Below, in pieces: positions 543-31,144 of a stretch of 42,797 nucleotides of DNA (position 1 is its first letter; every line of letters begins with the position of its first letter). Both the position numbers and the translations under genes were made by a program. The DNA comes from Terriglobia bacterium (lineage in GTDB: Bacteria > Acidobacteriota > Terriglobia > Terriglobales > Acidobacteriaceae): the NCBI GenBank assembly GCA_020073015.1, contig JAIQFZ010000079.1, positions 1 through 42,797 of the forward strand. Reading direction: 5' to 3'. The notes under the pieces were generated by a model. That model was not told where the DNA came from and did no database searches. It saw only the letters and a list, made by a program, of their open reading frames with translations.

Positions 543-562
543 GACGGGCGCCTTCGCCCGTC
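543..562. repeat. Palindromic element (GACGGGCG hairpin)
   Basis: A perfect 8-bp stem, GACGGGCG / CGCCCGTC, around a CCTT loop, 16 bases after the cytochrome stop codon. The flank GATGGAGA just before the stem recurs in inverse orientation next to the hairpin at 26501, so these copies share sequence beyond the stem. There is no T-tract, so it is not a typical terminator. Confidence 0.75.
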
Positions 563-609
563 GCCTTTCACCTTGGCCCCACCCCACCAGGCACGCTACA
601 CTTTCGCCC

Positions 610-1740
610 GTGACCTCGGCCCCTTCTTCCCGTCTCGCCTGGATCGACTGGATGCGCGGCCTCGCTTGCCTGCTGATGTTTCAAACCCACTGCTACGATT
701 CGTGGCTCGGCGGCGGCGCGCGCAAATCGTCTTTCCTTACATGGTCTCAACTCGGAGGCACGCTGCCCGCTCCGCTCTTCCTGTTTCTGGCAGGCATTTC
801 GTTCGCCTTCGTCACCGACAAACTCGTTCGTAAGGGCATCAGCACCGCGGAAATCACTCGTACCATGGCGCGTCGCGGTGCCGAGATCTTCGCCTTCGGC
901 TTGCTCTTCCGCCTGCAGGAATTTCTGATCGCCTGGGGATGGGCCCCCAAATCGGATCTGCTCCGCGTCGACATCTTGAACACGATCGGCCTGTCGATGA
1001 TCCTGATGGCGCTCGTCTGCGGCCTCGCACTGCGCGCGGCACGCCAGCACGGTCGCCGCACCACTCTGGTCGCCGCAGCCATTTCCTCGGCCGCGCTCAT
1101 TGCGCTCCTCACCCCGCTCCTCTGGACCACCGCGCGCCCCACCTGGCTTCCCTGGCCGCTCCAGTCCTATATCAACGGATGCCACAATCTCGGCGCGCCC
1201 CAGTCCTGGCTCTTCCCCATCTTCCCCTGGACCGCCCTCGCCTTCGCTGGCCTGGCCGCTGGATTTCTTCTCTTCAGCGATTGGGCTCGCGCCCACACCG
1301 CCCAGACTCTGGCTCTCAGCGGAGTCTCCGGCGCCGCGTTAATCCTCATCGCACGCGGACTCGATCATTCGCCCATCCGTTTTTACTCGGTCTACGACTA
1401 CTGGCACACGAGTCCCAACTTCTTGTTTACGCGTGTCGGCATCTTGTTAATGATCGCCTTCCTGAGTTACGCCTGGTGCCGCTGGGGACTTGGCGCCTGG
1501 GGCTTCAGCCCGCTCATCCAACTCGGCCAGACCTCGTTGCTCGTCTACTGGGTGCACATCGAATTCGTCTACGGACGCTTCTCGATCGTCCCCAAACGCG
1601 CCGCAGGGATCCGCACGGCTTCGCTGGGACTGCTGACAATCTTTCTGATGATGCTGGCCCTATCCCTGCTGCGGACCCGCATCAACTGGAAGACTGCGGC
1701 CCTGGCGTTGCGGTCCAGAATCTCGCAACCAGCCGCCTAG
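610..1740 (+). CDS. Multi-pass membrane protein, DUF1624 / heparan-glucosaminide acetyltransferase-like
   Basis: A 376-residue integral membrane protein with about ten hydrophobic segments. The N-terminus reads RLAWIDWMRGLACLLMF, the first-helix signature of the DUF1624/HGSNAT-like and acyltransferase-3-like families (R-x-x-x-x-D-x-x-R-G). These membrane enzymes move acyl groups, often acetyl, across the membrane onto sugars. A pocket-like FLFLAGISFAF segment at residues 56-66 is also typical. The substrate cannot be told. The start is a GTG at 610 without a strong ribosome site. It stands alone and converges with the next gene. Confidence 0.75.
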   Translation: MTSAPSSRLAWIDWMRGLACLLMFQTHCYDSWLGGGARKSSFLTWSQLGGTLPAPLFLFLAGISFAFVTDKLVRKGISTAEITRTMARRGAEIFAFGLLFRLQEFLIAWGWAPKSDLLRVDILNTIGLSMILMALVCGLALRAARQHGRRTTLVAAAISSAALIALLTPLLWTTARPTWLPWPLQSYINGCHNLGAPQSWLFPIFPWTALAFAGLAAGFLLFSDWARAHTAQTLALSGVSGAALILIARGLDHSPIRFYSVYDYWHTSPNFLFTRVGILLMIAFLSYAWCRWGLGAWGFSPLIQLGQTSLLVYWVHIEFVYGRFSIVPKRAAGIRTASLGLLTIFLMMLALSLLRTRINWKTAALALRSRISQPAA

Positions 1741-1780
1741 CAGATCGGCGTCCCAACCCGTCGCGCAGGGTGCAGGGTGC

Positions 1781-1811
1781 CCCGCTCATCGCGTACTTTG
1801 TGATGAGTGGG
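1781..1811. terminator. Hairpin between convergent genes
   Basis: CCCGCTCATC at 1781-1790 pairs with GATGAGTGGG at 1802-1811 (one G-T pair) around an 11-base loop, in the gap between two convergent genes. It has no T-run on either strand, so it may be a repeat element rather than an intrinsic terminator. Confidence 0.45.
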
Positions 1812-1827
1812 ATTCCGCACGCTCGCC

Positions 1828-2403
1828 CTAAGTCACGTCCCGCCCCGACAACTGCACAATTGCGTTCCCCACCAACTTCATTCCGATCGCCCAGTTCTGC
1901 CGAGCCACTGCCTCATCGTTCTCGTATCCATTCACGTAGACGGTGAAATAGAAACCCTCGCGCGCCTCGCCTCCTTCGCTCAAGAAGCAGCGCCGCACGC
2001 ATACTTCTGCCGACGAAGACGTTTCCGGCGCACTCCGCAGCAGCGCCGCCAGCCGCTTCGCAAATTGTAGGTGCTCTGGGAAGGAATGCCGCTGATCAGC
2101 GTTGGATAGAACCAAGTCCACGTAACTCGCAAATTTGTGCGACGCCCCAAAGATTTTTTCCTCCGGCGTCAGTTCCATCGTCGTCCACACATCGCACTTC
2201 GCGCTCTCCACTACGCTGCGCGCCGAATTGACGCTTCGCAAGAACTCCGCCAGTTCCGGAAGGTCTCTCGTCTCCTCCACCTGTGCCAGCAATTCCGGAT
2301 GCCGCTTGAGATCAAAGTAGGCCAGCCGGCCCGAAGCATCGGTCCAGGGAAAATCGAGCACCGGATCTTCACCGCCCAGTTCTACTGAGAAATCAGCGTC
2401 CAT
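1828..2403 (-). CDS. Conserved hypothetical protein coupled to the YheT-type hydrolase
   Basis: A soluble protein of 191 residues with no signal peptide or membrane segment and no motif I recognise. The composition is acidic. The C-terminal part (FYFTVYVNGYENDEAVARQ and following) looks like alternating beta strand and helix. The ATG at 2403 overlaps the stop codon of the upstream hydrolase gene (TGATG arrangement), which indicates translational coupling and a common transcript. The function is unknown. Confidence 0.7.
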   Translation of the reverse strand: MDADFSVELGGEDPVLDFPWTDASGRLAYFDLKRHPELLAQVEETRDLPELAEFLRSVNSARSVVESAKCDVWTTMELTPEEKIFGASHKFASYVDLVLSNADQRHSFPEHLQFAKRLAALLRSAPETSSSAEVCVRRCFLSEGGEAREGFYFTVYVNGYENDEAVARQNWAIGMKLVGNAIVQLSGRDVT

Positions 2404-3446
2404 CAGAACCCGCGCAGGAAATTCACAATCTGGCTCTCCGCCCAGTAGCCGTCATCCGCACCGTTTCGCGCTCCCACAAACGCGCAATGCCCGCCGTCCG
2501 CCGTCTCACGAAACGTGATGTTCGCATTCGCCGCAATCTTCCGCCGTGTCTCCGGCGTGATGCGAATAAACGGATCGTCTGCCGCGTGCACAATCAGTGC
2601 CGGCACCGCGATCTGCCCAACCACATGCGCGGCCGAAGCCCGGTCATAGTAGTCGTCGACGCCAGTGAAGCCGCAATAGTAAGCCGTCACCCGGTCGTCG
2701 AACTCACGCAGGCTGCGGATGCCACGCAGGCGGCTCGTGTCGAAATGTGCCGGGAACAGCCGCGCCTTGTGAAGCATCCGCCGCCGCAGCGCCCACAGAA
2801 AATACGTCTCGTAGATCCGGTTCGCCGGCTCATGCAGTGCGTCCGCCGACGCTGCCAGATCCAGCGCCGGACAACATGCCGCTACCGCCCGAAATTGCGC
2901 AGGCGCCTGCTCTGCCCACTCTCCCGCCAGCTTCAGCACCAGGTTCCCGCCCATCGAAAAGCCCACCAGCGCCAAGTCAGAAATACCGTCGCGCGCAATC
3001 AACTCACGCGCTACCACCGCAACATCATTCGACAATCCCGAGTGGTATAACACGGGCGCCAGCGCATCCGTGCCGCCGCAGTTGCGCTGGTTGTAGCGGA
3101 TCACATTCATCCCCGCCGCCAGCGCCTTCTCCGTGACGCCCTGCATGTACTGCGATTCGCTTGACCCTTCCAGCCCGTGCACAATGATGATGGTCAACGG
3201 CTTCGTACGATCGGCCTGCCAGTGACAATGACAGAGCACCTGGATTCCGGGCGCCACTTCGACCATCCTCTCCTCGGGCGCGGGCAGATGAAAACGGCGT
3301 TGGATCAGGAAGCTCGCGACGGTCTGCACGTGCCCTCCGCGCAACCAGCGCCGCGGCACGAAGGTCGAGGTAATTTCGGGTGATTGCGAAATGCCCACGT
3401 CTGATTTTAAATAGAAACGGGAAGTTTTCTTCCCGGAGTCATTCAT
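2403..3446 (-). CDS. Alpha/beta hydrolase of the YheT / EMB8 family
   Basis: The protein has the YheT family opening FVPRRWLRGGHVQT and an alpha/beta hydrolase core with the nucleophile elbow GFSMGG. The likely acid is the Asp in HAADDPF near the C-terminus, and the catalytic His lies in GGHCAF. Relatives are esterases of uncertain natural substrate. Start choice is open: ATG 3446 gives 347 residues and overlaps the divergent fmdB-like ATG by two bases, while GTG 3398 gives 331 residues, closer to the family norm. Neither has a good ribosome site. The downstream gene overlaps its stop codon. Confidence 0.85.
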   Translation of the reverse strand: MNDSGKKTSRFYLKSDVGISQSPEITSTFVPRRWLRGGHVQTVASFLIQRRFHLPAPEERMVEVAPGIQVLCHCHWQADRTKPLTIIIVHGLEGSSESQYMQGVTEKALAAGMNVIRYNQRNCGGTDALAPVLYHSGLSNDVAVVARELIARDGISDLALVGFSMGGNLVLKLAGEWAEQAPAQFRAVAACCPALDLAASADALHEPANRIYETYFLWALRRRMLHKARLFPAHFDTSRLRGIRSLREFDDRVTAYYCGFTGVDDYYDRASAAHVVGQIAVPALIVHAADDPFIRITPETRRKIAANANITFRETADGGHCAFVGARNGADDGYWAESQIVNFLRGF

Positions 3447-3678
3447 GCCCATCTTCGAGTACGTCTGCAAGGAATGCCAGCACCAGTTCGAAGCTCTCGT
3501 CTACGGCAAGGAAAAAGCCGCGTGCCCGAAGTGCCAGAGCAAGAGATTGGAACCCCAGCTGTCGGTATTCGCCGTCTCGGCCAAGGGCAATTCCGCGCCC
3601 ACCATGAGCGCTAGCCCCTGCGGCTCCTGCGGCGATCCCCGCGGCCCGGGCGCCTGCGCGATGAAAGACTTCAACTAG
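3445..3678 (+). CDS. FmdB-family zinc ribbon protein
   Basis: A protein of 77 residues starting MPIFEYVCKECQHQFE, the regulatory FmdB-type zinc ribbon. Two CxxC knuckles (Cys-Lys-Glu-Cys near residue 8 and Cys-Pro-Lys-Cys near residue 31) should bind zinc. The C-terminal tail is rich in Ser, Gly and Cys (SPCGSCGDPRGPG), a common ending for this family. Its cellular role is poorly known; the original FmdB was proposed as a regulator of an amidase operon. A GGAG ribosome site at 3435-3438 sits well before the ATG. It is divergent from the YheT-type gene. Confidence 0.88.
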   Translation: MPIFEYVCKECQHQFEALVYGKEKAACPKCQSKRLEPQLSVFAVSAKGNSAPTMSASPCGSCGDPRGPGACAMKDFN

Positions 3679-3695
3679 TCCGACACCCCAACTCT

Positions 3696-3779
3696 GTCAT
3701 CCCGAGCGCCGGGCGCGGGAGCGAAGCGACCAAGCACAAGTCGAGAGCCTACCCTGAGCTTGCCGAAAGGGACCTTGTG
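3696..3779. repeat. Interspersed GTCATCC...GGGACCTT repeat
   Basis: The intergenic sequence starts GTCATCCCGAGCG, contains AGCGAAGCGA and ends GGGACCTTGTG. The same skeleton (GTCATyC.GAGC ... GAAG ... GGACCT) recurs at 13205-13232 and 40108-40168. It is a decayed dispersed repeat in the gap before the PilZ gene. No gene is seen here. Confidence 0.6.
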
Positions 3780-3892
3780 TTCTTCCTTCCCGCTCCGCCA
3801 AGTAACTTCCGGCACTCCAGCCCGGTAACCCTTGTGACGTTTCCCTTCCCGCGCTTCCGGGCTATGATCCTGTCGAATCCGGGGAGCGCACG

Positions 3893-4207
3893 ATGGACCG
3901 GCGAGCAGAGCGCAGACTTAACCTGGAATTGCCCGTACGCGTCTGGGGAGTTGATCGGATGGCGCGCCCCTTCGCCGAACTTGTCCGCGTGCGCAATGTG
4001 AGCCACCGCGGCGCAGTCCTGGTCGGCATACGCTCCAAGGTCCGCACCGGCGAATTGCTTGACGTGCAACACGGCGCCTTGCGCGCCCAGTTTCGCATTA
4101 TCTGGATCAGTGTTTCCGGGGAGGCCGGAATCCAGGCTCTTGCCTTTGAGCCGCCCATCTGGGGCATCGGCCTCCCCACAAGTTTTGAGATGGTGGGAAC
4201 CGGATAG
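3893..4207 (+). CDS. PilZ-domain protein
   Basis: A stand-alone PilZ domain of 104 residues. It opens MDRRAERR, giving the RxxxR c-di-GMP contact, and carries the second motif (D/N)xSxxG as Asn35-Val-Ser37-His-Arg-Gly40. Both signatures are intact, so c-di-GMP binding is likely. As there is no output domain it probably acts by contacting a partner, which is not identifiable here. It converges with hemW, 29 bases apart. Confidence 0.82.
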   Translation: MDRRAERRLNLELPVRVWGVDRMARPFAELVRVRNVSHRGAVLVGIRSKVRTGELLDVQHGALRAQFRIIWISVSGEAGIQALAFEPPIWGIGLPTSFEMVGTG

Positions 4208-4236
4208 GCCTACGCCGAACGGCTCTCATCGGCCAA

Positions 4237-5601
4237 CTAACGTGGATTCACGTGGCCGGTTCCCACTTTTCCTTCTTCCGCAAGAAACCGCGCAAACACT
4301 TCGTTCGACAACAGCCTCCCGCGCGCCGTCAGCCGAACCGTGGTTCCGTGCTTCTCCAGCAGCCCGTCGTCCGCACACTCGTCGATCGCAGCCTCGCAGC
4401 TTGCGACGCTCTCAGCGCCGAACTCCGCGCGGATGCGCTCCAGATCGACGCCACAATTCAACCGCAATCCAAGGAAGAAGCTCTCTTCCAGCGCCGCCTG
4501 TTCCGACACCGGCGTCACCGTCCGCGCCGCGCGATTCATGTAGGCATCGAGCGAATCAGGTGTTGAGAACCGGAAGGCCTGGAAACTTCCGCCGTCAGCA
4601 GTCTGCTGAACAGCTGGGATTGAGCCTTGGTTTTGGGTGGCGCAGCGCTTCAGCGCTGCGGTATGCCGTCCCTGACAAGATTCGGCTTTAGCCGCTGAGG
4701 TCCCGGGATCAGGACCAGAAGAGTCTGCCGGCCGCCCGACCGCGGAAAGCATCGAGTGCGCATCCACGCCAAATCCGAGATACGGCTGACGCGTCCAATA
4801 CTTCAAGTTATGCCGCGACTCCGAACCCACCCGCGCAAAATTGGAAATCTCGTACTGCTCAACCCCCGCCGCATTCAAAGTGTCGCAAGCCTGCTGATAG
4901 AAATCCGCCGTCGCCCCCTCATCCGGCACGAAGTGCGCATGATAGCGCGTGCCGCCCGCGATCAGTTCCCGGCCCAGCCGCGAATCTTCATCCACTTCGA
5001 GCATGTAAACGCTGGCATGCGGCGCCCCTGCAGCAACCGCCTCCGCCAGCGAGAATTCCCAACTCGCCGCCGTCTGATGCGGCAATCCCGCAATCAAGTC
5101 AATATTGATATTGACGATCCCAGTGGCCCGCAGCCGAGCAATTTCTTCCAACACCGTCGAGCGCTTGTGCAGCCGCCCAACCGACTGCGCTTCCTGATCG
5201 ACAAACGATTGCACTCCCAAGCTCACGCGATTCACGCCGCACAGCAAAAGCGTCTCGATCAAACCCGGACTAAGCGTGCCCGGAGCGCACTCCACCGTAA
5301 TCTCCGCGTCCGCGGTCAAAGCAAACTCGCCTCGCACCGCCTCGAAGATTCGCATCAACTGCGACGACTCCAAAATCGAAGGAGTCCCGCCCCCGAGATA
5401 CACCGAATCCGCGCTCTCCTCGAACACGCCCCCAAGTTCAGTAGCAGCCGTCCGCGCATTGCCGATGTCCTCAATCACGCGCGCCACGTAGTTCTCAAAC
5501 GCCCCCTTCGAAAACACGTCGGAAGCAAAGTTGCAGTAGCTGCACTTAGTCCGGCAGAACGGCACCGAGATGTAGAGGCCGAGCGGCATACTTACTTCCA
5601 T
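4237..5601 (-). CDS. hemW: HemW-like radical SAM haem chaperone, carrying an in-frame insert
   Basis: The protein has the radical-SAM cluster motif CX3CX2C (Cys16, Cys20, Cys23), the GGGTPS motif, and the HemW-like core (QSFVDQE, LIAGLPHQT, YEISNFAR, LGFGVDAHS). Family members lack the coproporphyrinogen-oxidase residues and act as haem-binding chaperones. Length is 454 residues against about 380 for the family. The excess includes a roughly 49-residue low-complexity stretch at residues 289-337, encoded by palindromic repeat DNA at 4590-4735. It sits in a loop just after the conserved DAHSML segment, so the fold could tolerate it. MPLGLY at 5589 is an alternative start. Confidence 0.85.
   Translation of the reverse strand: MEVSMPLGLYISVPFCRTKCSYCNFASDVFSKGAFENYVARVIEDIGNARTAATELGGVFEESADSVYLGGGTPSILESSQLMRIFEAVRGEFALTADAEITVECAPGTLSPGLIETLLLCGVNRVSLGVQSFVDQEAQSVGRLHKRSTVLEEIARLRATGIVNINIDLIAGLPHQTAASWEFSLAEAVAAGAPHASVYMLEVDEDSRLGRELIAGGTRYHAHFVPDEGATADFYQQACDTLNAAGVEQYEISNFARVGSESRHNLKYWTRQPYLGFGVDAHSMLSAVGRPADSSGPDPGTSAAKAESCQGRHTAALKRCATQNQGSIPAVQQTADGGSFQAFRFSTPDSLDAYMNRAARTVTPVSEQAALEESFFLGLRLNCGVDLERIRAEFGAESVASCEAAIDECADDGLLEKHGTTVRLTARGRLLSNEVFARFLAEEGKVGTGHVNPR
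4590..4735. repeat. Composite palindromic element inserted in frame in hemW
   Basis: Three separate stems lie in this stretch: TCAGCAG-T-CTGCTGA at 4595-4609, CGCAGCGC-TTCA-GCGCTGCG at 4641-4660 and CGGCT-TT-AGCCG at 4683-4694. The DNA is read through in the hemW frame without a stop and encodes Ala/Ser/Gln-rich sequence with no counterpart in the HemW family as I know it. Confidence 0.7.
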
Positions 5602-6953: not shown

Positions 6954-8984
6954 ATGGCTTCCAATCAGGAAGAGGAAGTATTAGGCAAAGCGTACGACGG
7001 CCGGCTGATGCGGCGGTTGCTCACCTACCTGCGTCCCTACAAATGGCACGTGATGGTGGCGCTTGCGGCCATCATCCTGAAGTCGGTAGCCGACGTGCTC
7101 GGCCCCTTCCTCACTAAAATCGCGATCGACAAGTACCTAGCCAAGGCGCCCAACTCGCATTCCTGGCTCGGCGACCACCTCAGCGACACAGCTCTCACCG
7201 GCATCGCGCAAATCGGAGGCCTCTACATCGGCCTGCTGCTGTTCACCTTCGCGCTCGAATTCGTCCAAACCTACCTGATGCAGTGGACCGGACAGAAAGT
7301 CATGTTCGATCTCCGCAAGCAGATCTTCCGTCACCTGCAGTTCATGCACGTCGGCTTCTTCGATAAAAATCCCGTCGGACGCCTCGTCACCCGCGTCACC
7401 ACCGACGTGGACGCGCTCAACGAAATGTTCACCGCCGGCGTCGTCTCGATCTTCGAAGACGTCTTCGTGCTCTTCTTCATTCTCGCCATCATGCTCGACA
7501 TGAACTGGAAGCTCGCGCTGATCACCTTCGCCGTGCTTCCGCTCATCGTGTACGCGACCAAAATCTTCCGCGACAAGGTGCGCGATTCCTACCGGCGCAT
7601 CCGCACCGCGATCGCCCGCATCAATTCGTTCCTGCAGGAATCGGTCTCCGGCATGCTGGTGCTGCAACTGTTTAACCGCGAGAAACGCGCCTTCCGCCAG
7701 TTCTCCGACATCAACGCCTCGCACATGGAGGCGTTCAAAGACGCCATCATGGCCTACGCGGTCTACTACCCGGTGGTCGAAGTTCTGTCGTCGATTGCAG
7801 TGGCGGCCATCATCTGGTTCGGCGGAAATGGAATCATCCAGTACCTGGGCGCCGCGAGCGTGGCCATTGGATTCTCCAAGAAGAGCCTCCTCACCTTTCA
7901 CCTCGTGCCCATCGTGCAGAATGTGATGACGCTCGGCGTGCTGGTCGCCTTCATGCAGTACGCGCAGCGCTTCTTCCGCCCGATCCAGGATCTCAGCGAA
8001 AAGTACAACATCCTGCAGTCGGCCATGGCAGCCGGTGAGCGAGTCTTCAAGCTGCTCGATACAAAAGCAGAAATTACCTCACCCGCCGTAACCAAACAGC
8101 CGCAAGGCCCGGGAAGAATCGAATTCGACCATGTCTGGTTCGCCTACAACGTTCGGGGAGGGACGGGCGCCCCCGCCCGTCCAGGCGAGCCGAGCCCGGC
8201 AGAGGCGGCGGACAAGAGTGTCCGCCCTGCCCCCGATTGGGTCCTGCGCGACGTCAGCTTCGCCCTCGAACCCGGCGAAACTGCCGCTGTCGTCGGCCAC
8301 ACCGGCGCGGGCAAGACCACCCTGATCTCGCTCCTCATGCGCTTCTACGACGTGCAGCAGGGCGCCATCCGCATCGACGGCGTCGATATCAAAGAAATGG
8401 ACCTCGTCGACCTGCGCGCCCGCTTCGGCGTCGTGCTGCAGGACCCGTTCCTGTTCTCGGGTACGGTCGAGGGCAACATCCGCCTCGGCACCACGCGCAT
8501 TCAGGACGAAGATGTCGAGCAAGCCGCCGAAGACGTCAACCTCGCCGACTTCATCCGCACGCTCCCCGGAGGCTTCAAAGAAGAAGTCCGTGAACGCGGT
8601 TCCACGCTCTCGACCGGCCAGAAGCAGCTCATTTCATTTGCGCGAGCCTTGGCGCACGATCCCAAGATCCTGATCCTCGACGAAGCCACCTCCAGCGTCG
8701 ATACCGAAACCGAATTCCGGCTCCGCGACGCGCTCAGCCGCATGGTCGAAGGCCGCACCTCGTTGATCATCGCCCATCGCCTGTCGACGATCCAGCGCGC
8801 CGACAAGATCATCGTGATGCACAAAGGCCAGGTCCGCGAAATGGGCTCGCACCAGCAACTGCTAGCCCAGCGCGGGATTTACTACAAGCTCTACCAATTG
8901 CAGTACAAAGACCAGGAAATCAATGTGGCGCGGGCGCCCTCGCCCGCGAACGCCCCTCAAGTCGCAGTGCGCGGCGACGATTAG
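6954..8984 (+). CDS. ABC exporter, fused permease and ATPase (MsbA/MdlB type)
   Basis: Type IV ABC half-transporter of 676 residues. The six-helix membrane domain covers about residues 20-340 (RPYKWHV... to QYAQRFFRPI). The ATPase follows with Walker A GHTGAGKTT near residue 450, Q-loop LQDPFLFSG, signature LSTGQKQ near 552 and Walker B ILILDEATSSVD, all intact. It should work as a homo- or heterodimer exporting a lipid, peptide or drug. Between the first ATPase strand (FDHVWFAYN) and WVLRDVSF sits a roughly 28-residue Gly/Ala/Pro insert (399-427) encoded by palindromic repeat DNA. The C-terminal tail also contains a hairpin element. Confidence 0.92.
   Translation: MASNQEEEVLGKAYDGRLMRRLLTYLRPYKWHVMVALAAIILKSVADVLGPFLTKIAIDKYLAKAPNSHSWLGDHLSDTALTGIAQIGGLYIGLLLFTFALEFVQTYLMQWTGQKVMFDLRKQIFRHLQFMHVGFFDKNPVGRLVTRVTTDVDALNEMFTAGVVSIFEDVFVLFFILAIMLDMNWKLALITFAVLPLIVYATKIFRDKVRDSYRRIRTAIARINSFLQESVSGMLVLQLFNREKRAFRQFSDINASHMEAFKDAIMAYAVYYPVVEVLSSIAVAAIIWFGGNGIIQYLGAASVAIGFSKKSLLTFHLVPIVQNVMTLGVLVAFMQYAQRFFRPIQDLSEKYNILQSAMAAGERVFKLLDTKAEITSPAVTKQPQGPGRIEFDHVWFAYNVRGGTGAPARPGEPSPAEAADKSVRPAPDWVLRDVSFALEPGETAAVVGHTGAGKTTLISLLMRFYDVQQGAIRIDGVDIKEMDLVDLRARFGVVLQDPFLFSGTVEGNIRLGTTRIQDEDVEQAAEDVNLADFIRTLPGGFKEEVRERGSTLSTGQKQLISFARALAHDPKILILDEATSSVDTETEFRLRDALSRMVEGRTSLIIAHRLSTIQRADKIIVMHKGQVREMGSHQQLLAQRGIYYKLYQLQYKDQEINVARAPSPANAPQVAVRGDD
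8160..8226. repeat. Double-hairpin palindromic element, in frame inside the ABC exporter gene
   Basis: Hairpin one is GGGACGGGCG...CGCCCGTCC at 8160-8182. Hairpin two is GGCGGACA-AGAG-TGTCCGCC at 8207-8226, a perfect 8-bp stem. The first hairpin and its flank GTCCAGGC match the intergenic element at 23962 (GTCCAAGC). The second matches the hairpin at 31121 (GCGGACA-GGAA-TGTCCGC). The length and frame preserve the reading frame of the transporter. Confidence 0.8.
8924..8948. repeat. Palindromic element in the 3' end of the ABC exporter gene
   Basis: The 10-mer TGTGGCGCGG leads into a perfect stem CGCGGGCG-CCCT-CGCCCGCG at 8929-8948. The CCCT loop is identical to the one at 23971. The 10-mer recurs in reverse at 25013-25022 and 31135-31144. 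It encodes ARAPSPA near the C-terminus of the exporter. Confidence 0.7.
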
Positions 8985-9790: not shown

Positions 9791-10960
9791 TTGCGCATCC
9801 TGATCTCAGCAGGCGAAGCTTCCGGTGAAATGTACGGCGCGCAGTTGATCGAAGCGCTGCGGCGGGCTGCGGAGCTTCGCTCCGCTGGGCGGACGGGGGC
9901 GTCCGCCCCTACGCAAGCCGTGCCGCTTCAATTCTTCGGCGCCGGCGGAGAGCGCATGCGTGCTGCCGGCTGCGACGTCATCATCGACGCCAAAGACCTC
10001 GCCGTCGTCGGCATCACCGAAATCGTCAGCCATCTCCCGAAAATCCTCGGTCTCTACAAAAAGCTCATCCGCGCCGCCGACGACCGCCACCCCACGCTCG
10101 CCATCGTCATCGACGCGCCCGCCTTCAACTGGCGCATAGCCCGGCAGATGCGCAAGCGCCGCATTCCCGTCGTCTACTACGTCTGCCCGCAGTTCTGGGC
10201 CTGGCGACAGGGACGCGTGAAGCTCCTGCGCAAATACGTCAACAAGGCGCTAGTGATTTTCCCCTTCGAAGAAAAGTTCTACCGCGATCGCGGCGTCGAC
10301 GCGGCCTTCGTGGGCCATCCGCTCGCCGATCTGCCCGCGCCTGCCATCACCCGCGCAGCCTATGCCGCCGAGCACGCGCTCGACGCCGCCAAGCACTGGA
10401 TCACCCTCATGCCCGGCAGCCGCCGTAAAGAAGTCCGCATGAATCTGCCGACCATCCTCGAAGCCGCCGACCGCCTCGGCGCAAGCTACGAATTTCTGCT
10501 GCCGGTAGCGCGCACGCTCGAACCTGCGTTTCTGAAGCTGCTGATCGGCGATCGCAAAATTCGCCTGGTCCCCGAATCCCTCCCCGCGCTCCACCACTCC
10601 CGCGCCGGAATCGTCGCCAGCGGCACCGCCACCGTCGAAGCCGCCCTGATGGGCACACCCTTCGTCATGGTCTACCGCGTCTCGCCCTTGACCTACGCAA
10701 TCGGCAAGCCCCGCATCAAGGTTCCTCACTACGCCATGGTCAACCTGATTGCCGGCGAAGAAATCGTCCCCGAACTCGTACAGCACAAGTTCACCGCCGA
10801 GAACATCGGCGCCGAGTTGGGCAAGATCATCCCCGACGGCCCCTCACGGGAAAAAATGATGCGAGGTCTAACATCAGTGCGAGAAAAGCTGAAGAAGCCG
10901 GAGGGCGCCCAACGCCCTGCCGAGTGCGCTGCCCAGATCATCCTGGACATGCTGAAATAG
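9791..10960 (+). CDS. lpxB: Lipid-A-disaccharide synthase LpxB, carrying in-frame palindromic inserts
   Basis: LpxB condenses UDP-2,3-diacylglucosamine with lipid X to form the lipid A disaccharide at the inner membrane. The family signatures are clear: SAGEASGEMYGA at the N-terminus, IDAPAFNWRIARQ, YYVCPQFWAWRQGR, LMPGSRRKEV, SGTATVEAAL and PFVMVYR. The length is 389 residues. Residues 25-42 (a stretch containing LRSAGRTGASAP) are extra relative to the family and are encoded by two adjacent hairpins. A third small hairpin lies in the C-terminal codons. The start is TTG 9791, as no in-frame ATG lies upstream. The gene indicates an organism making lipid A. Confidence 0.93.
   Translation: MRILISAGEASGEMYGAQLIEALRRAAELRSAGRTGASAPTQAVPLQFFGAGGERMRAAGCDVIIDAKDLAVVGITEIVSHLPKILGLYKKLIRAADDRHPTLAIVIDAPAFNWRIARQMRKRRIPVVYYVCPQFWAWRQGRVKLLRKYVNKALVIFPFEEKFYRDRGVDAAFVGHPLADLPAPAITRAAYAAEHALDAAKHWITLMPGSRRKEVRMNLPTILEAADRLGASYEFLLPVARTLEPAFLKLLIGDRKIRLVPESLPALHHSRAGIVASGTATVEAALMGTPFVMVYRVSPLTYAIGKPRIKVPHYAMVNLIAGEEIVPELVQHKFTAENIGAELGKIIPDGPSREKMMRGLTSVREKLKKPEGAQRPAECAAQIILDMLK
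9869..9908. repeat. Double-hairpin palindromic element, in frame inside lpxB
   Basis: GCGGAGC-TTC-GCTCCGC at 9869-9885 (7-bp stem) is followed directly by GGGCGGAC-GGGGGC-GTCCGCCC at 9887-9908 (8-bp stem). The two-hairpin layout with a TTC loop in the first is the same as at 21135-21174. It is translated in the lpxB frame. Confidence 0.8.
10902..10918. repeat. Short palindromic element near the 3' end of lpxB
   Basis: AGGGCG-CCCAA-CGCCCT forms a perfect 6-bp stem inside lpxB codons encoding EGAQRP. It is probably a second, smaller insertion of the same repeat class. Confidence 0.5.
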
Positions 10961-13373: not shown

Positions 13374-13607
13374 ATGAAGGAAAAGACTTCCATCACACTT
13401 TCACCCGACGTCCTCGCCGGCATCGACCGGCTGGCGGGATCAAAGCGCTCGCGTTCGGCCGTCATCGAGCACGCCCTGCGCCGCTACTTGAGCGAACACG
13501 CGCGCATGCGGATCCAGGCCCGCGATCTCGAGCAACTCAATCGTGCGGCCGACGAACTCAATGCCGAAGTGGCCGAAGTGCTCGACTACCAGATCACCGA
13601 GGGCTGA
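13374..13607 (+). CDS. Ribbon-helix-helix antitoxin (CopG/MazE-like)
   Basis: A protein of 77 residues. The N-terminal ribbon-helix-helix is plain: [19 protein letters not shown] followed by [16 protein letters not shown]. This should dimerise and bind operator DNA. The charged helical C-terminus ([18 protein letters not shown]) would wrap the toxin. The MazF-like gene follows after seven bases, the standard antitoxin-toxin order, and the pair would autoregulate. Bases GGATAATAG upstream could contain a -10 element. Confidence 0.88.
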
Positions 13608-13614
13608 CCGGCCA

Positions 13615-13938
13615 ATGCGACGCGGCGACCTCTATCGCGTTTCCAAGCCTGGTGGCGATCCCAAAAGTTCACGCGTATTTGTAGTTGTCAGCCGTCAGGT
13701 GCTGCTCGATTCCCGTTTTTCAAGCGCGATCTGCGCCCCGATCTTTTCCAGTGGTCACGGACTCTCGACGCAGGTGGCCGTAGGTATCGAAGAGGGATTG
13801 AAGCACGATAGTTGGATCATGTGCGACAACCTGGTTTCGCTGCGCAAGGCAGATTTGACGCAGTTTATCGGCACCCTTCCGGCCACTAAACTCGCCGAGT
13901 TGAACCGGGCTCTGAGGATGGCGCTCGATCTGGACTAA
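13615..13938 (+). CDS. MazF/PemK-family toxin
   Basis: A protein of 107 residues starting MRRGDLYRV, the usual MazF/PemK beginning (R-G-D-L/I-Y/W). The fold pattern continues with [22 protein letters not shown] and a C-terminal helix of the form [20 protein letters not shown]. MazF enzymes are endoribonucleases that cut mRNA at short sequences; the target site cannot be predicted here. The start ATG 13615 gives the family-typical N-terminus; a longer frame exists upstream but overlaps the antitoxin. It is co-transcribed with the RHH gene. Confidence 0.88.
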
Positions 13939-21121: not shown

Positions 21122-21134
21122 GTTTTGGGCGACG

Positions 21135-21174
21135 GGCGAGCTTCGCTCGCCTGCCCGGACGAAGCCGTCCGGGC
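21135..21174. repeat. Double-hairpin palindromic element (intergenic)
   Basis: GGCGAGC-TTC-GCTCGCC at 21135-21151 is followed by GCCCGGAC-GAAGCC-GTCCGGGC at 21153-21174. Both stems are perfect. The layout matches the copy inside lpxB. Confidence 0.8.
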
Positions 21175-21219
21175 CTGCGCGACTCCTCTAAGTCGCTCAA
21201 AAGGCGACAGATTCCGTTC

Positions 21220-23944: not shown

Positions 23945-23961
23945 CAACGATGGTCGTGTGG

Positions 23962-24002
23962 GGACGGGCGCCCTCGCCCGTCCAAGCCGAGCGTAGCTCG
24001 GC
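23962..24002. repeat. Double-hairpin palindromic element (intergenic)
   Basis: GGACGGGCG-CCCT-CGCCCGTCC at 23962-23983 and GCCGAGC-GTA-GCTCGGC at 23986-24002. The first hairpin plus its flank is nearly the same as the copy inside the ABC exporter gene at 8160. Confidence 0.85.
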
Positions 24003-25012: not shown

Positions 25013-25048
25013 CCGCGCCACAGCCGGCGGGACGCCGACGCTACAAGG
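25013..25048. repeat. Palindromic-element fragment
   Basis: CCGCGCCACA at 25013-25022 is the reverse of the TGTGGCGCGG leader seen at 8924. Further on, GCCGACGCTACAAG is the reverse of TTGTAGCG.CGGC, as found at the start of the 31 kb cluster. It lies directly before the DUF4019 ribosome site. Confidence 0.55.
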
Positions 25049-25505: not shown

Positions 25506-25546
25506 CGACCCGACTTCACGACAACGGGTAGGGATTGAGGGATTCA

Positions 25547-25972: not shown

Positions 25973-26466
25973 AGAAGATCTTCCACTTCGACTCTCCCGC
26001 TGCCCCCTACGTCGCCGATGCCGCGGTGCTGTGCTGCTTCGATCAGCGCATCAGTACGGCCGTGCGAAAGTTTCTTAAGAAGCAGGGCATCGAGCGCGCC
26101 GACATGATCGTTGTAGCTGGAGGAGCGAAGACCCTAGCCTCCCCGCGCAACGACTTCGAGCAGGACTTCATCCTCGAACAGGTCCGCATGTCGATTCGCC
26201 TGCACCAGACCAAACGCGTGATGGTGATGAGCCATTCCGACTGCGCTACGTACGGCGGCCTTGCTCATTTCAAAGGAGACCGGGCAGCCGAGGCCGAGCA
26301 TCACCGGGAAGAATTGCTGCGCGCCGGCGAACTGCTCACCGCGAACTTCCCCGACATTTCCGTCGAACCCTATTTCGTGAAATTTGACGGAGTCTGGGTG
26401 GTCCATGGAGCGTCGCATCTGAAAACTGGTCGAGCCCCGGAACTGACGGCTCGCGAGATCACCTGA
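25969..26466 (+). CDS. Beta-carbonic-anhydrase-like zinc protein
   Basis: A protein of 165 residues. It shows the beta-carbonic-anhydrase zinc ligands: CxDxR as Cys23-Phe-Asp25-Gln-Arg27 and HxxC as His89-Ser-Asp-Cys92. Around these sit strands VMVMSHSDC and a glycine-rich loop VVAGGAKTL. It is shorter than standard beta-CAs (about 200-220 residues) and matches the uncharacterised carbonic-anhydrase-like family. Whether it hydrates CO2 is open: in standard enzymes the residue after CxDSR and the local pocket are needed, and here the Ser is Gln26. It is coupled to the preceding membrane protein. Confidence 0.75.
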   Translation: MKKIFHFDSPAAPYVADAAVLCCFDQRISTAVRKFLKKQGIERADMIVVAGGAKTLASPRNDFEQDFILEQVRMSIRLHQTKRVMVMSHSDCATYGGLAHFKGDRAAEAEHHREELLRAGELLTANFPDISVEPYFVKFDGVWVVHGASHLKTGRAPELTAREIT

Positions 26467-26500
26467 CTCTACCGCGTAGAGTGCTGCTGGCCGCAATCCC

Positions 26501-26520
26501 GACGGGCAAGGGCGCCCGTC
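26501..26520. repeat. Palindromic element (GACGGGC hairpin)
   Basis: GACGGGC-AAGGGC-GCCCGTC with flank TCTCCATCG. The flank is the exact reverse of GATGGAGA before the hairpin at 543. It is intergenic. Confidence 0.7.
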
Positions 26521-26559
26521 TCTCCATCGTCACCGATTTCCTGCTACAAATAATGGCCT

Positions 26560-27579
26560 ATGAAAATTCTGTTCATTGGCGGGACAGGAATCATCAGCAC
26601 GGCTTGTACTGCGCTGGCGGCGCAGCGCGGTATGGATGTTACGCTGCTCACACGGGGCCAGCATATGTCGCAATTGCCGGCCGGGGTCAAGTCTCTGCTG
26701 GCGGACGCGAATGATCCGGCGCTAGTCCAGAAGCTGGTGAACGCGTCGTTTGATGCGGTCGTCGACTTTATCGCGTTTACACCGGCGGATGTGGAGCGCG
26801 ATCTCACGTTGTTCCGGGGGCGCACGCGGCAGTTCGTGTTTATCAGTTCCGCCAGCGCGTACCAGAAGCCGGCGGCGCACTACCTGATTACGGAGTCCAC
26901 TCCGCTCGCCAATCCGTACCTGGAGTATTCGCGGAACAAGATCGCCTGCGAAGAGCGGCTCTTGCGGGCGTATCGCGAAGAAGGGTTTCCGGTGACCATT
27001 GTGCGCCCCTCGCTGACCTATGGCGAGACTCTGATTCCACTGGTGCTGAACAGCTGGCAGCAGTCCTACACGGCGGTCGACCGGATGATTCGCGGACAAA
27101 AGATGGTTGTGCCGGGAGATGGCTCTTCGCTGTGGGTGCTCACGCACAACACCGATTTCGCCCAGGGACTGGTCGGCCTGCTCGGCCACGAGCAGGCCAT
27201 CGGGCACGCGTTTCACATCACGTCCGACGAAGTGCTGACGTGGGACCAGATTTTTCGCATTGTAGGGAACGCGGTGGGCGTGGAACCGCAGCTGGTGCAT
27301 ATTCCATCCGACTTTATTGCAGCCTGCTGGCCCGACAAGAGAGGGACGTTGACGGGCGACAAGTCGGTGAGCGTGGTCTTCGACAATACCAAGATCAAGC
27401 GGTTCGTTCCGGGATATTGCGCGACCACCAGTTTTGCGCAGGGCGTCCGGCGATCGCTGGCGTGGTTCGATGCGGACCCTTCCCGGAAGAAGATTGACCA
27501 GCAGACCAATGCGATCTGGGACAAGCTGATTTCGGGATATGAGAAAGGGATGAGCGAGACGGTACGAAGTTTTGCGTGA
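26560..27579 (+). CDS. NAD-dependent epimerase/dehydratase (extended SDR)
   Basis: A protein of 339 residues. The nucleotide-binding Rossmann motif is GGTGIIS near the N-terminus, with DFIAF and FVFISSASAY as later SDR signatures. The catalytic pair YxxxK is in EYSRNK. The substrate part (PSLTYGETLIP, HAFHITSDEVLTW) resembles the NAD(P)-binding NmrA/CSP41-like epimerases. The natural substrate is unknown. It stands alone and converges with vapC. Confidence 0.85.
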   Translation: MKILFIGGTGIISTACTALAAQRGMDVTLLTRGQHMSQLPAGVKSLLADANDPALVQKLVNASFDAVVDFIAFTPADVERDLTLFRGRTRQFVFISSASAYQKPAAHYLITESTPLANPYLEYSRNKIACEERLLRAYREEGFPVTIVRPSLTYGETLIPLVLNSWQQSYTAVDRMIRGQKMVVPGDGSSLWVLTHNTDFAQGLVGLLGHEQAIGHAFHITSDEVLTWDQIFRIVGNAVGVEPQLVHIPSDFIAACWPDKRGTLTGDKSVSVVFDNTKIKRFVPGYCATTSFAQGVRRSLAWFDADPSRKKIDQQTNAIWDKLISGYEKGMSETVRSFA

Positions 27580-27610
27580 GCCCGATTCGCATGACCAGCG
27601 CGAAGGCGGT

Positions 27611-28024
27611 TCAGGCCTTGGCCCAATCCACCCATTCAAGACGCTTGACCCGGCCGAACTCCTTCCCATTGGCGGTGATCAGCGTCAACTGGTGGCGCAG
27701 TGCCTGGGCGGCAATCAACAGGTCGTAAGCCCCGATCGGTTTTCCCACGGCTTCTAGCGCCGCTCGCACCCGGCCTGCAACTTTCGCATCTTCTTGCTCG
27801 AACGCCAGCAGGCTCACCGGACCCGCGAAGAAGGTCTCCACCAGCCGTGCGTTGGCTTCCGGACGGGCGCTCTTCGCAACTCCGTACCAGAGCTCAAACG
27901 CTACGACAGAAGAGACCAATATCCTTGCGTCATTGGCAAGGGCCTTCTGCAAACGCATCCGGACCGAAGGCGCCTTGTCGTTGATCAGCGCAATGCAGGC
28001 GTTGGTATCGAGCAGATACGTCAC
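27611..28024 (-). CDS. vapC: VapC-type PIN-domain toxin
   Basis: A protein of 137 residues. PIN-domain acidic residues can be seen in [10 protein letters not shown] (Asp6), [11 protein letters not shown] (Glu) and [12 protein letters not shown] (Asp), ending [16 protein letters not shown]. These ribonucleases usually cut tRNA or rRNA. The start is a GTG at 28024 (VTYLLDTN) overlapping the vapB stop by four bases; a longer reading frame overlaps vapB and is not favoured. Confidence 0.9.
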
Positions 28025-28266
28025 TTGAAGATCTCGCGCCGCGGCGTTACCGGCTGGTTCCGGCCTTTGCCGAGGAAGGAGACTTCCCGAACCCGGTCCA
28101 GTTCCGCGAACCACTCGGCAGGATCGGCAATGAGGGGTTCCAGGAGCACCCCCTCCGCTAGGCGGCGCACGCGAACCTGACTGCCCTCAAAGCGAAACTC
28201 GCGAGGCAGACGCACCGCCTGGCTGCGTCCATTGCGAAACAGCTTGGCGATTCCGGTCTCGGCCAT
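28021..28266 (-). CDS. vapB: VapB-type antitoxin (AbrB/SpoVT fold)
   Basis: A protein of 81 residues. The swapped-hairpin DNA-binding domain is typical: [20 protein letters not shown] then [14 protein letters not shown]. The C-terminal part ([15 protein letters not shown]) would bind and neutralise VapC. The start ATG 28266 has GGAGAG a little upstream. A perfect 9-bp inverted repeat lies directly upstream and is probably its operator. Confidence 0.9.
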
Positions 28267-28290
28267 TTGGCAATCTCTCCGGCTCATTAG

Positions 28291-28334
28291 TATATACCAG
28301 AAATCGCTACCATGAACTCTACCAATGGTATATA
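28291..28334. promoter_or_regulatory. Inverted repeat, candidate vapBC operator
   Basis: TATATACCA at 28291-28299 and TGGTATATA at 28326-28334 are exact inverted copies 26 bases apart, in the only AT-rich patch nearby, just ahead of vapB. AbrB-fold antitoxin/toxin complexes commonly bind such paired half-sites over their own promoter. Confidence 0.7.
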
Positions 28335-28371
28335 TCAAGAGCTTCCGCCCATCCCGACAGCCAGCCCAGAC

Positions 28372-29782
28372 TCAACGGCTTGAATCTTCTTCGGAATGCT
28401 CCTCTGTCGTGTGAACTTCTTCTTCAGCCCACACCAGCGCCAGGGTGCGCGAAGTGGTCTCGATCTGGGCGGGTTCCGGCATTTCCACCACGCTCGCCGC
28501 TCCCAGTTCAGGGAACCGCCGCGCCGACACCAGAACCCGGCTCTCCAACGAACCGACTGCCTTGTTGTAAGACTCCACCGCCCGGTCTAGGCCCTTCCCT
28601 ACGGCATCGAGATGGGTCGCAAAGATACGCAAGCGCTCATACAATTCTTTGCCGAGTTCACTGATCTGCTGCGCGTTTTCGGCGATTTTCTCTTGCGTCC
28701 ATCCATAGGCAACCGCCTTGAGGAGCGCAATGAGGGTGGTCGGGGAGGCAGGGATTACGCCCTGATTCACTCCGTGCTCGATTAAGCTTGGATCCTGTTC
28801 GAGTGCGGCGCTAAAGAAGGTTTCTCCGGGTAGAAACATGACCACGAATTCGGGAGCAGGTTGAAACTGTTCAAAATAGGATTTCGAACCGAGTTTGGCC
28901 ATGTGACCTCGAACCTGCTGAGCGTGTTCGAGCAATTTCGCTTTCCGAACTTCATCATCGGTTGTTTCCACGGCATCCAGGTAGGCCTGCGGCATCCAGG
29001 TAGGCCTGCAGCGGTGTTTTTGCGTCAACGACGATATTCTTTCCCGCAGGCAGCTTCACCACTAGGTCCGGGCGCAACCTGCCGTCGTTTGTGTTAACAG
29101 ACACTTGTTCCTCGAAATCGCAGTAGCTAAGCATCCCTGCAATCTCGACAACCCGCTTCAACTGGATCTCTCCCCAGCGACCACGGACCGTGGGTGTGCG
29201 CAGAGCCTTCACGAGGTTTCCGGTCTCGCTGCGCAACTGCTCCTGCGTAGAAATCAATGAGCGGACTTGTTCGGTAAGAGTCCCGTAGGCTTGGCTGCGC
29301 TCCTTCTCGATCTGCTGGATTTGGGCGTCAACCTTAGTTAGAGATTCCTTGATCGGCGTCACCAGGTCTTCCACGGCCTTCCGGCGGGCTTCCAAATCTC
29401 CCTTCGCCTCGGTTTGATACTTCTCCAGCCGCGTCCTTGCCAGCTGCAAGAAGGATTCGTTGTTGCTCCTTAGGGCGTCAGCAGCCAAGGCTTGGAAAGC
29501 TGGGCGCAGTTCCGCCGACGCAGAGTTTAGGAGTTGGAGCTTTTCTGCACCCGTCTTGCGCTCTTCTTGCAGTGTGGAATTGAGTCCTGCAACTTCAGCC
29601 CTAAGGTCTGAGTTATTGGAGTTCGCCGTCCTGAGTTCCTCTCGCACAGCAGTTAGCGTCTGCTCCAGAGTCGATACTTGCTCCCGCAGCACGGCGGATC
29701 TGGTTCGCAAAACCAGCCACGTGACAACGGCCCCCAGCACAGCGGAAATAATTGCCAGGGCCAGTATCGAAAGGCTATCCAT
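28372..29782 (-). pseudogene. rmuC: rmuC, broken by a 19-bp tandem duplication
   Basis: RmuC is a nuclease-like protein that limits recombination at inverted repeats. The N-terminal frame (29782-28955) has a membrane helix, a long coiled coil and the RmuC core start ([51 protein letters not shown]). The C-terminal frame (to 28372) carries the rest ([30 protein letters not shown]). The two are joined at an exact 19-bp direct repeat (28972-29009). Removing one copy restores [15 protein letters not shown] in a single frame. GGAGGT precedes the ATG 29782. This could be a recent mutation, a reversible switch or an assembly error. Confidence 0.88.
28972..29009. repeat. 19-bp perfect tandem duplication in rmuC
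   Basis: The unit GGCATCCAGGTAGGCCTGC stands twice without spacer (28972-28990, 28991-29009). Nineteen is not a multiple of three, so one copy shifts the frame. Confidence 0.97.
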
Positions 29783-30035
29783 GGCTGACCTCCATCTGCT
29801 CCAGGCGACTGGCCATGTCGGCAGTGCTGACACTGATCTTCTGGCCAAGGGTTGAATTGAGACTTTCGAGCGCGCCGGCAAGTTCCGCCTTTACATCCAC
29901 TTGCGAGGCAGCGGAAACGCGGCGCAGCAGTACATCCACTTGCGAGGCAGCGGAAACGCGGCGCAGCAGTACGGCCGAAAACCCAAGCAGGACAAGGGTT
30001 CCGACGAGCACGGTAACTAACAGTAATGTCTCCAT
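29775..30035 (-). CDS. Small membrane protein upstream of rmuC, with a 13-residue duplication
   Basis: A protein of 86 residues: an N-terminal membrane helix ([21 protein letters not shown]) and then a polar helix. The unit [13 protein letters not shown] occurs twice in tandem, from the 39-bp duplication. The rest ([18 protein letters not shown]) looks like coiled coil. Its stop overlaps the rmuC start by eight bases, and the rmuC ribosome site lies within it, so the two genes are coupled. The family is unknown. Confidence 0.65.
29892..29969. repeat. 39-bp perfect tandem duplication
   Basis: A 39-base unit beginning TACATCCACTTGCGAGGCAG is present twice, at 29892-29930 and 29931-29969. It keeps the reading frame of the small membrane protein. 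It lies under 1 kb from the 19-bp duplication in rmuC. Confidence 0.95.
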
Positions 30036-30127
30036 CGTAAGTAGCTGACCTGAATTCTAGAGGCTAGGTTCAGAGATGGAAAGCGGAACTTTCTCGCGTT
30101 CCTGGTTCGAACGCCTGATCCGACGCT

Positions 30128-31012
30128 ATGCTCTGGGCCCTGGTTGCTTCTTTCGCGATGGTGGCAGGCAGTCCGGGACCCGGCGTGGCCACTCCGGCGA
30201 CTCCAGCCCGCGTCCATCCTTCAAAGCTAACTTCACAGCCCACCCCCACAAAAGCTTCGGCGGCCCGCGTGTCTTCGAGCGAAGACACCGCCGCCGAACG
30301 CGAATTGTTGGAACTGGCCAACCGAGACCGTCGGGAAGCAGGCGTGCCGCCGTTGCGCGCCGACGAAAGCCTGACGGCCGCGGCGCGGGCGCATGCGCAG
30401 TTGATGGTGGCGAACGCGCAACTGGAACATCAGTTCTCGGGCGAACCGTCCCTGTTACGACGAATCGCGCAAGTCAGCGCCCTGCGCTTGGATCGCGCGG
30501 GCGAGAACATCGCTCACGATTCTTGCGCAGCCGGGGCCGAGGAGGCTTTCATGCATTCCCCTCCGCATCGGCGAAACTTGCTGGATCGCGGGTTTAATGT
30601 GGCGGGCTTCGCAGCGATCCGGAGCCAGGGGCGCCTGTACGTGGTGCAGGATTTCGGGCATGAGGTTTCGACGCACACCGTCGCGCAAACCAGGGAACTC
30701 GTCAGCCATGCGGTGAATGACGTCCGCAGAGATGCGGGATTGACCGCGCTCAGCCCGTATGCGCCGGCGAAACTCGACGACGCGGTGTGCTCCCTGGCGC
30801 AGCAAGGGCGTCCGAGCGCGCGCCTGCTTCAGACGGCGTACGACAACCGCCGCATCATCACTTACACCCAGAGCCGGCCGGAGATCCTGCCGCCGGGGGC
30901 GGTGAATCTGCTGCACGACCGCGAGGTTCGCCAGTTCGCGGTGGGATCGTGCTACGCGCGCAATGCGGCCTATCCCACGGGGATGTACTGGGTCGCGATT
31001 CTTCTCTACTAG
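30128..31012 (+). CDS. Secreted CAP/SCP-domain protein
   Basis: A protein of 294 residues. The N-terminus is a short hydrophobic signal (LWALVASFAMVAGSPG) and a Pro/Thr linker. The CAP domain at about residues 58-180 shows the expected motifs: LLELANRDRREAGVPPL, AAARAHAQLM, AGENIAH, FMHSPPHRRNLLDRGF. The C-terminal third (about 185-294) is not part of CAP and includes two cysteines. Bacterial CAP proteins are extracellular with mostly unknown roles. The start ATG 30128 has no clear ribosome site. Confidence 0.85.
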   Translation: MLWALVASFAMVAGSPGPGVATPATPARVHPSKLTSQPTPTKASAARVSSSEDTAAERELLELANRDRREAGVPPLRADESLTAAARAHAQLMVANAQLEHQFSGEPSLLRRIAQVSALRLDRAGENIAHDSCAAGAEEAFMHSPPHRRNLLDRGFNVAGFAAIRSQGRLYVVQDFGHEVSTHTVAQTRELVSHAVNDVRRDAGLTALSPYAPAKLDDAVCSLAQQGRPSARLLQTAYDNRRIITYTQSRPEILPPGAVNLLHDREVRQFAVGSCYARNAAYPTGMYWVAILLY

Positions 31013-31033
31013 AACTGGCCCAGCCTTTGTAGC

Positions 31034-31144
31034 GCCGGCACCTTGCCGGCTAGCCTGCCCTGAGCGAAGTCGAAGGGCGAGGGCACCTTGCCCTCGCAGG
31101 GCGTCGCCACACGCCGAGACGCGGACAGGAATGTCCGCGCCACA
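31034..31144. repeat. Cluster of three palindromic hairpins
   Basis: GCCGGCA-CCT-TGCCGGC (31034-31050), GCGAGGGCA-CCT-TGCCCTCGC (31077-31097) and GCGGACA-GGAA-TGTCCGC (31121-31138). All stems are perfect. The motif CCCTGAGCGAAGTCGAAGGG occurs at 31059-31078 and again at about 31224. The last hairpin ends CCGCGCCACA. The 31013-31270 gap is filled by these repeats and contains no gene. Confidence 0.8.

Follow-up and report, generated by a model that had tools for sequence, protein, structure and literature searches.

What are the GC-rich palindromes that recur along contig C56 of a Terriglobia bacterium (Acidobacteriaceae; JAIQFZ010000079.1, assembly GCA_020073015.1), and how did they come to lie both between and inside its genes? 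This contig, 42,797 nucleotides long and referred to here as the window, belongs to a genome assembly of 5.50 Mb in 245 contigs (99% complete; below, the own genome). A first-pass annotation of the window had described a single family of double-hairpin elements of common descent and had likened them to repetitive extragenic palindromic (REP) sequences. The likeness to REPs holds and the single family does not. With a probability of roughly 0.92, the hairpins carried by this Acidobacteriota genome of Terriglobia type are GTAG-superfamily REP elements, which we infer to be moved in trans by a REP-associated tyrosine transposase (RAYT). This reading draws on copy number, a terminal GTRG tag, paired changes in the stems, RAYT genes bracketed by REPs, restriction to one lineage and differences between species at orthologous sites, all of which are observed.

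Hairpins, classes and tag

Perfect stems of at least 8 bp number 15 in the window against a mean of 5.0 and a maximum of 8 in 30 first-order simulations, and those of at least 9 bp number 7 against 1.5. Ten of the 15 were judged to be part of the hairpin set and those at 343, 7713, 20466, 27175 and 30269 to be background. The stem scan returned perfect hairpins at 543-562, 4641-4660 (in hemW), 8161-8182 with 8207-8226, 8929-8948, 9887-9908, 21153-21174, 23962-23983, 31077-31097 and 31120-31139. The palindromes listed in the first-pass annotation were confirmed, that at 26501 being weaker than had been stated, with a perfect stem of 7 bp only that falls outside the list of stems of at least 8 bp; the two-hairpin plan ascribed to four elements was recovered at 8161/8207, 9870/9887, 21138/21153 and 23962/23986. 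Exact GTRG stands directly before five of the window hairpins (4637, 8925, 9887, 23958 and 31120), the hairpin at 31029 has GTAG one base off and the remainder carry degenerate tags. At gathering scores Rfam recognised three tRNAs only.

The unit as defined here is a GTRG tag followed by a perfect stem of 7-9 bp and a loop of 3-4 nt. Patterns for four classes were run over the whole genome with up to three mismatches, each against its reversed pattern as control. Class A (SGCGG[A/G]CA-loop-TG[T/C]CCGCS, a 20-base pattern) gave 178 matches against 1 for the control, class C (GGACRGCCG-CCCT-CGGCYGTCC and GGGCGGACG forms, in many cases accompanied by a second hairpin like GAGCGAAGCTC) 86 against 0, class D (GGGTGG-CGCAGCGCTTCAGCGCTGCG) 54 against 0 and class B (GGACGGGCG or CGCGGGCG, with a loop that is mostly CCCT) 13 against 0. 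Together these amount to about 320 matches, ten places being common to the B and C lists; the patterns are narrow, and class E (GTAGC-GCCGGC...GCCGGC) and variants fall outside these totals.

The tag was scanned in samples of 443 kb and 843 kb of the own genome, the latter being 15% of the whole. In the smaller sample hairpins of at least 7 bp are enriched 7.1-fold after GTGG and 8.9-fold after GTAG relative to expectation from tetranucleotide frequency. In the larger, 67 perfect hairpins directly follow the tag (GTGG 39, GTAG 28), whereas the other tetranucleotides scanned that precede any have 8, 7, 5, 5, 2 and 1. In most of 30 class A copies read with their flanks, the stem is immediately preceded by GTGTAG or GTGTGG when the copy is taken on the strand whose loop is ACTCC or ACTCT. 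Three of the 67 hairpins, all intergenic, were entered on both strands, and one row was dropped for low GC. The resulting 66 rows comprise 47 that are intergenic, 17 inside called genes and 2 overlapping a gene end; 32 of the 47 lie between genes of the same direction. Tagged copies are therefore mostly extragenic though 81% of the sample was called coding, with the caveats that the gene caller was a crude one and that the intergenic share is rough, at least one row (9887) having been called intergenic when a Pfam match places it within lpxB.

Genome-wide the hairpins fall into at least four classes of GTAG- or GTGG-tagged REP, whose common features are the tag and the plan. A single family of common descent is ruled out by classes that differ in stem or loop and have different RAYT neighbours. 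The words flanking the stems, which had been offered as the argument for that descent, are weak evidence as such when set against the numbers predicted from their rate in the 843 kb sample: TGTGGCGCGG occurs 3 times in the window against 1.5, GATGGAGA 6 against 1.9 and GTCCARGC 4 against 3.7. TGTGGCGCGG is indeed present at 8924, 25013 and 31135 as had been reported, but at 25013 there is no hairpin of at least 8 bp. Two of these words became intelligible once the whole genome had been searched: GTCCARGC is the joint within the class B hairpin pair, and TGTGGCGCGG is tag plus stem foot.

Paired changes in the stems

Covariation was assessed in class A with the tested positions left free in the pattern. 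Among 39 copies from the own sample the outer pair is C-G in 21, G-C in 17 and C-A in 1, and the inner pair A-T in 30, G-C in 8 and G-T in 1, so that each is Watson-Crick in 38 of 39. The 105 copies from loci of relatives, many of them drawn by a species-scan pattern in which the outer pair was restricted to G or C, have C-G 48, G-C 47, A-T 7, G-T 1 and C-C 2 at that pair (Watson-Crick 102 of 105) and A-T 96, G-C 5, A-C 2, T-T 1 and G-T 1 at the inner one (101 of 105). At the lpxB site described below, two stem positions distinguish G000 from G010, and at each of them both partners have changed. The set of 61 tagged hairpins (26 of them distinct) whose loops have four bases was excluded as evidence of covariation because its members had been selected for pairing. 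The stems therefore vary while staying paired, and the tags and loops are fewer in kind. Biochemistry of the TnpA_REP transposase with perfect-stem REPs is in agreement with this pattern. In the cited parts of that study of REPtron recognition (PMC8266576) the tag and a loop base are reported to matter, cleavage suffers from a mismatch in a perfect stem, and many exchanges of whole stem blocks have modest effect as long as pairing is preserved, as would fit a constant tag, few loops and covarying stems.

RAYT genes and distribution among genomes

The Y1_Tnp domain (PF01797) has eight matches in the own genome, seven above the Pfam cut-off, and is matched in 22 of 24 genus genomes. The RAYT gene on contig C71 is bracketed by GTAG-GGGCGGACGCATTCGTCCGCCCC-type units that resemble class C, that on C211 by class B, that on C53 by GTAGC-GCCGGCGTCCCGCCGGC (class E) and that on C95 by TTAG-CCCAGCGCTTCAGCGCTGGG, a class D-like stem with a TTAG tag. 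Class A brackets a related RAYT gene in G008, G014 and G006. Two full-length proteins were scanned against NCBIfam NF047646 (REP-associated tyrosine transposase, cut-off 80), and both passed; the class A protein of G014 scored 89.4 bits and the own protein on C137 115.1 bits. The first-pass annotation had proposed looking for many copies across the genome and for a linked RAYT gene, and both are found, the bracketed genes occurring in the own genome and in the genus. A RAYT-like gene of another appearance lies on contig C45 (51580-54897), where it is flanked by stems of 12-13 bp (CCCACTCAT...ATGAGTGGG) that do not belong to the tagged classes; it recalls the genes of Koribacter flanked by terminal inverted repeats (TIRs) in the cited sections of PMC3733652.

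The exact class A core with its tag was found in 21 of 24 genus genomes, the counts per genome running from 0 to 132. Of 297 genomes taken across the phylum 3 have it, namely the own genome and two of the same family (6 and 1 copies). A scan of one genome per species over 84,980 species, from which records of the own genome may have been left out, returned 64 stretches, all of them titled Acidobacteria, Acidobacteriaceae, Terriglobales or Terriglobia.

Copies inside genes and at orthologous sites

The claim that elements occur both between and inside genes was borne out, with in-frame copies in lpxB, an ABC exporter and hemW beside the intergenic ones. The lpxB gene was matched in 18 of 24 genus genomes, 17 of which were compared at the DNA level (that of G013 starts past the site). 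Measured from the same codon, the length of the site is divisible by three in all 17 orthologs; five have an empty form of 30 nt and twelve are longer. A tag-like hexamer, C(T/C/G)AC(A/G)C, is present in 10 of the 12 longer orthologs. In eight of the ten the distance from its end to the TTYTTYGG codons is exactly 17 nt, the distances in G003 and G005 being 8 and 10 nt. In G000, G010, G016 and G020 the hexamer at 17 nt adjoins a class C hairpin or its remnant, and in G014, G017, G012 and G018 a pair of an unrelated type, GACGGGGC, or what is left of one. This constancy of the tag with exchange of its neighbour suggests, at the level of aligned sequence, hairpin turnover at a fixed locus within the gene. 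The kept reading frame is a sign of tolerance and not of function, because any working gene would be expected to keep its frame.

Orthologs of the ABC exporter differ in the hairpins that their linkers carry, and G024, of another genus, has a short linker; some species have the copy at the C-terminus, which the nearest relative, G001, lacks. The hemW linker has class D in G000, G021 and G001 (the last with a different stem and an unchanged loop), G007 has class B there and G003 another hairpin, and in the remaining 17 of 22 genomes there is no stem of at least 7 bp at the site (G017 has one at an earlier linker). A second hemW linker contains in-frame peptides from other repeats (loci L282, L285, L287, L290 and L291, of G003, G016, G008, G005 and G004 respectively), CHPERSEG or a variant in the first four of these genomes and the EGHDFSRA type in G004 and others.

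To look for empty sites, flanks were matched between the 843 kb sample and loci of relatives, and three pairs were aligned in full. The copy at C69:177966 is shared, that at C217:66026 is also shared, with decay on the relative's side, that at C217:53341 is shared on the flank match alone, and C45:62622 lies within a stretch of wider divergence. The place of the window element at 23958 is taken by another hairpin or an unrelated spacer in G001, G003 and G015. In the spacer after the flotillin-like gene there, G001 and G015 (L070, L079) have a hairpin of GAGACGCGGC...GCCGCGTCTC type, that is, different hairpins at one place.

Weighing the explanations

Chance palindromes or compositional bias could account for part of what is seen in the window, about a third of the stems of at least 8 bp (5.0 of 15) being expected by simulation. 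As an explanation of the set as a whole this is barely credible; it is contradicted by the genome-wide counts, in which 13 to 178 matches stand against 0 or 1 for the reversed controls, and by the enrichment of the tag before hairpins. The hairpins could also be selected RNA elements, terminators or stabilisers of 3' ends, rather than mobile DNA. Some copies do lie just past called gene ends (5 nt at C69:143886, 3 nt at C228:36115 and 5 nt at C69:177966) and paired stem changes would fit RNA equally. We regard this as very improbable nevertheless, given that no T run follows the class A copies that were read with their flanks, that the same tag precedes unrelated stems, that 17 of 66 tagged rows are inside called genes and copies bracket RAYT genes, and that the number of exact class A copies ranges so widely within one genus. 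The units are often paired, after the manner of bacterial interspersed mosaic elements (BIMEs) or REP doublets forming hairpins (REPINs). On the favoured reading a unit would be recognised as a folded single strand, through tag and loop, by the RAYT, an HUH/Y1 transposase related to those of IS200/IS605. The enzyme would move the unit in trans, and copies entering genes would persist where the frame is kept and the linker is tolerant, most copies being intergenic.

For the sites inside genes two accounts have to be compared. The differences may reflect repeated independent insertion at a preferred site instead of hairpin turnover at a single old insertion, and to this we give somewhat less than an even chance. 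On a two-gene tree lpxB requires at least 4 changes between empty and occupied, and 7 among three states, the states having been set by eye with the unclear G002 and G005 and genomes without the compared site left out; the C-terminal copy of the ABC exporter requires at least 6. The tree is poorly resolved, with 8 of 16 inner branches open, and these counts are correspondingly weak. Set against repeated insertion are the eight of ten hexamer-bearing lpxB orthologs in which the tag lies exactly 17 nt before the same codons with two types of hairpin adjoining, and the flanking codons (QAGQLEFF type) that several orthologs of both types share and that are missing from the empty ones. The other account, which is offered tentatively and which we think less likely than not, is that REP loci inside genes of this genus are fixed, tag-anchored slots. 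Tag and flank would stay constant and the adjoining hairpin would give way to another, unrelated to it. The swap, through conversion between REPs or an exchange mediated by RAYTs, would in every case preserve the frame, and conserved proteins, LpxB among them, would keep gaining new linker peptides.

Several observations weigh against RAYT-driven movement of REPs. No other genome of the genus has as many class A copies as the own one, yet no close class A RAYT was found in it, the best match being the class B gene on C211 (55% identity over residues 6-136 of 169); G001, with 79 exact class A copies, is likewise without one. Such genes may lie in gaps of the assembly; alternatively, another RAYT may serve the copies, or they may be relics. 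Across genus genomes the number of RAYT genes does not track the number of class A copies: G009 has 11 copies and no Y1_Tnp match, and G015 has no copy and six matches. Among the RAYT genes of the own genome, the frame on C95 has an internal stop and that on C211 ends before the conserved C-terminus. The few sites compared yielded no insertion with two clean edges, and sequence cannot itself demonstrate movement, which is here a matter of inference.

Elements of the window

Upstream of an acyltransferase-like open reading frame (ORF, 610-1740) lies a hairpin of GGGCG/CGCCC type at 535..562 (plus strand), with an 8-bp stem, loop CCTT and the degenerate tag GATGGAGA; G001 has kept the flank, and the hairpin there has decayed. 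The same degenerate tag precedes the decayed copy with the 7-bp stem at 26501..26528 (minus). The hemW element, GGGTGG-CGCAGCGCTTCAGCGCTGCG of class D (4635..4660, plus), is inside the hemW-like ORF 4237-5601 on the minus strand, between the Radical_SAM and HemN_C domains. The ABC exporter (ORF 6954-8984) has an in-frame insert of two hairpins with degenerate tags, GGACGGGCGCCCCCGCCCGTCC and GGCGGACAAGAGTGTCCGCC, in its linker (8161..8226, plus) and a class B element, GTGG-CGCGGGCGCCCTCGCCCGCG, near its C-terminus (8925..8948, plus). In lpxB (ORF 9791-10960) the class C two-hairpin element GCGTAG-GGGCGGACGCCCCCGTCCGCCC-AGC-GGAGCGAAGCTCC is in frame near the start (9870..9914, minus).

Of the intergenic elements, that at 21130..21180 (minus) is a class C-like pair, GCCCGGACGGCTTCGTCCGGGC and GAGCGAAGCTC, with the degenerate tag GCGCAG, and that at 23956..24002 (plus), 11 nt past the flotillin-like gene, is the class B pair GTGTGG-GGACGGGCGCCCTCGCCCGTCC-AA-GCCGAGCGTAGCTCGGC. 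A class E hairpin, GTAG-C-GCCGGCACCTTGCCGGC (31029..31050, plus), is conserved in G001. Next comes an untagged palindrome, CCCTGAGCGAAGTCGAAGGG (31058-31077), followed by the hairpin GCGAGGGCACCTTGCCCTCGC (31077-31097), the two spanning 31058..31097 with no strand assigned. The class A element GTGTGG-CGCGGACATTCCTGTCCGCG is at 31120..31145 (minus), and G001 has an identical hairpin. Untagged repeats around CCTGAGCGAAG occur at 31058-31077, 31225-31244 and about 13210, with 18 matches in the 843 kb sample; the copy at 31225 is enclosed by the two arms of a tagged element resembling class A, a palindrome within a palindrome. The window also contains an exact tandem duplication of 39 nt at 29892-29969 (two copies, 100% identical) and a PemK/MazF-like toxin ORF at 13543-13938 (PF02452, 53 bits).

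Relation to known repeats

In the cited sections of Di Nocera et al. (2013; PMC3733652), GTAG REP families have short stems, small loops and a terminal GTAG that in some degenerates to GTRG or GTGG. They occur as singletons and dimers, with several families per genome and with REP-flanked RAYT genes. Over half of the REPs reported there inside genes are dimers or groups, coding for 20-30 residues, and two Xanthomonas species have different REPs at about the same recB site. The acidobacterial hairpins are alike in these respects. What the same sections give for Acidobacteria is TIR-flanked tyrosine transposases, with no mention of GTAG REPs; the present acidobacterial genus combines several classes, and many of its species differ in the hairpin at orthologous sites within genes. 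In Solibacter, also an acidobacterium, the class 3 TnpA_Y1 repeats are likewise hairpins in high copy number, about 600, and are associated with a Y1 enzyme, but have a CnGA foot where the present hairpins have GTRG, as far as the cited part of PMC6006769 describes them. Acidobacteria also appear in a table of palindromes predicted by a tool, in the portion of PMC12306157 cited. The Rickettsia palindromic elements, named among the closest parallels in the first-pass annotation, are described in PMC3733652, in the part cited, as palindromic repeats in frame in protein genes; they belong to a different lineage, and the parallel drawn here is limited to that location. Among the literature matches listed, as judged by title and first lines, none dealt with GTRG REPs in this genus.

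The elements therefore belong to a known kind, REPs that are most likely moved in trans by RAYTs, and REPs inside genes have already been published (PMC3733652, in the sections cited). The less ordinary part is the pattern within genes, where the constant position of the tag with exchanged hairpins in lpxB suggests turnover at a fixed slot, though repeated insertion at a preferred site may also account for it. What is added is a set of GTRG REPs that is well supported and comes with matching RAYTs, from a genus that has peat-soil Acidobacteriota among its named relatives. The series of empty, type 1, type 2 and shortened forms in lpxB, a lipid A gene, provides natural material on how short mobile hairpins enter and alter proteins.

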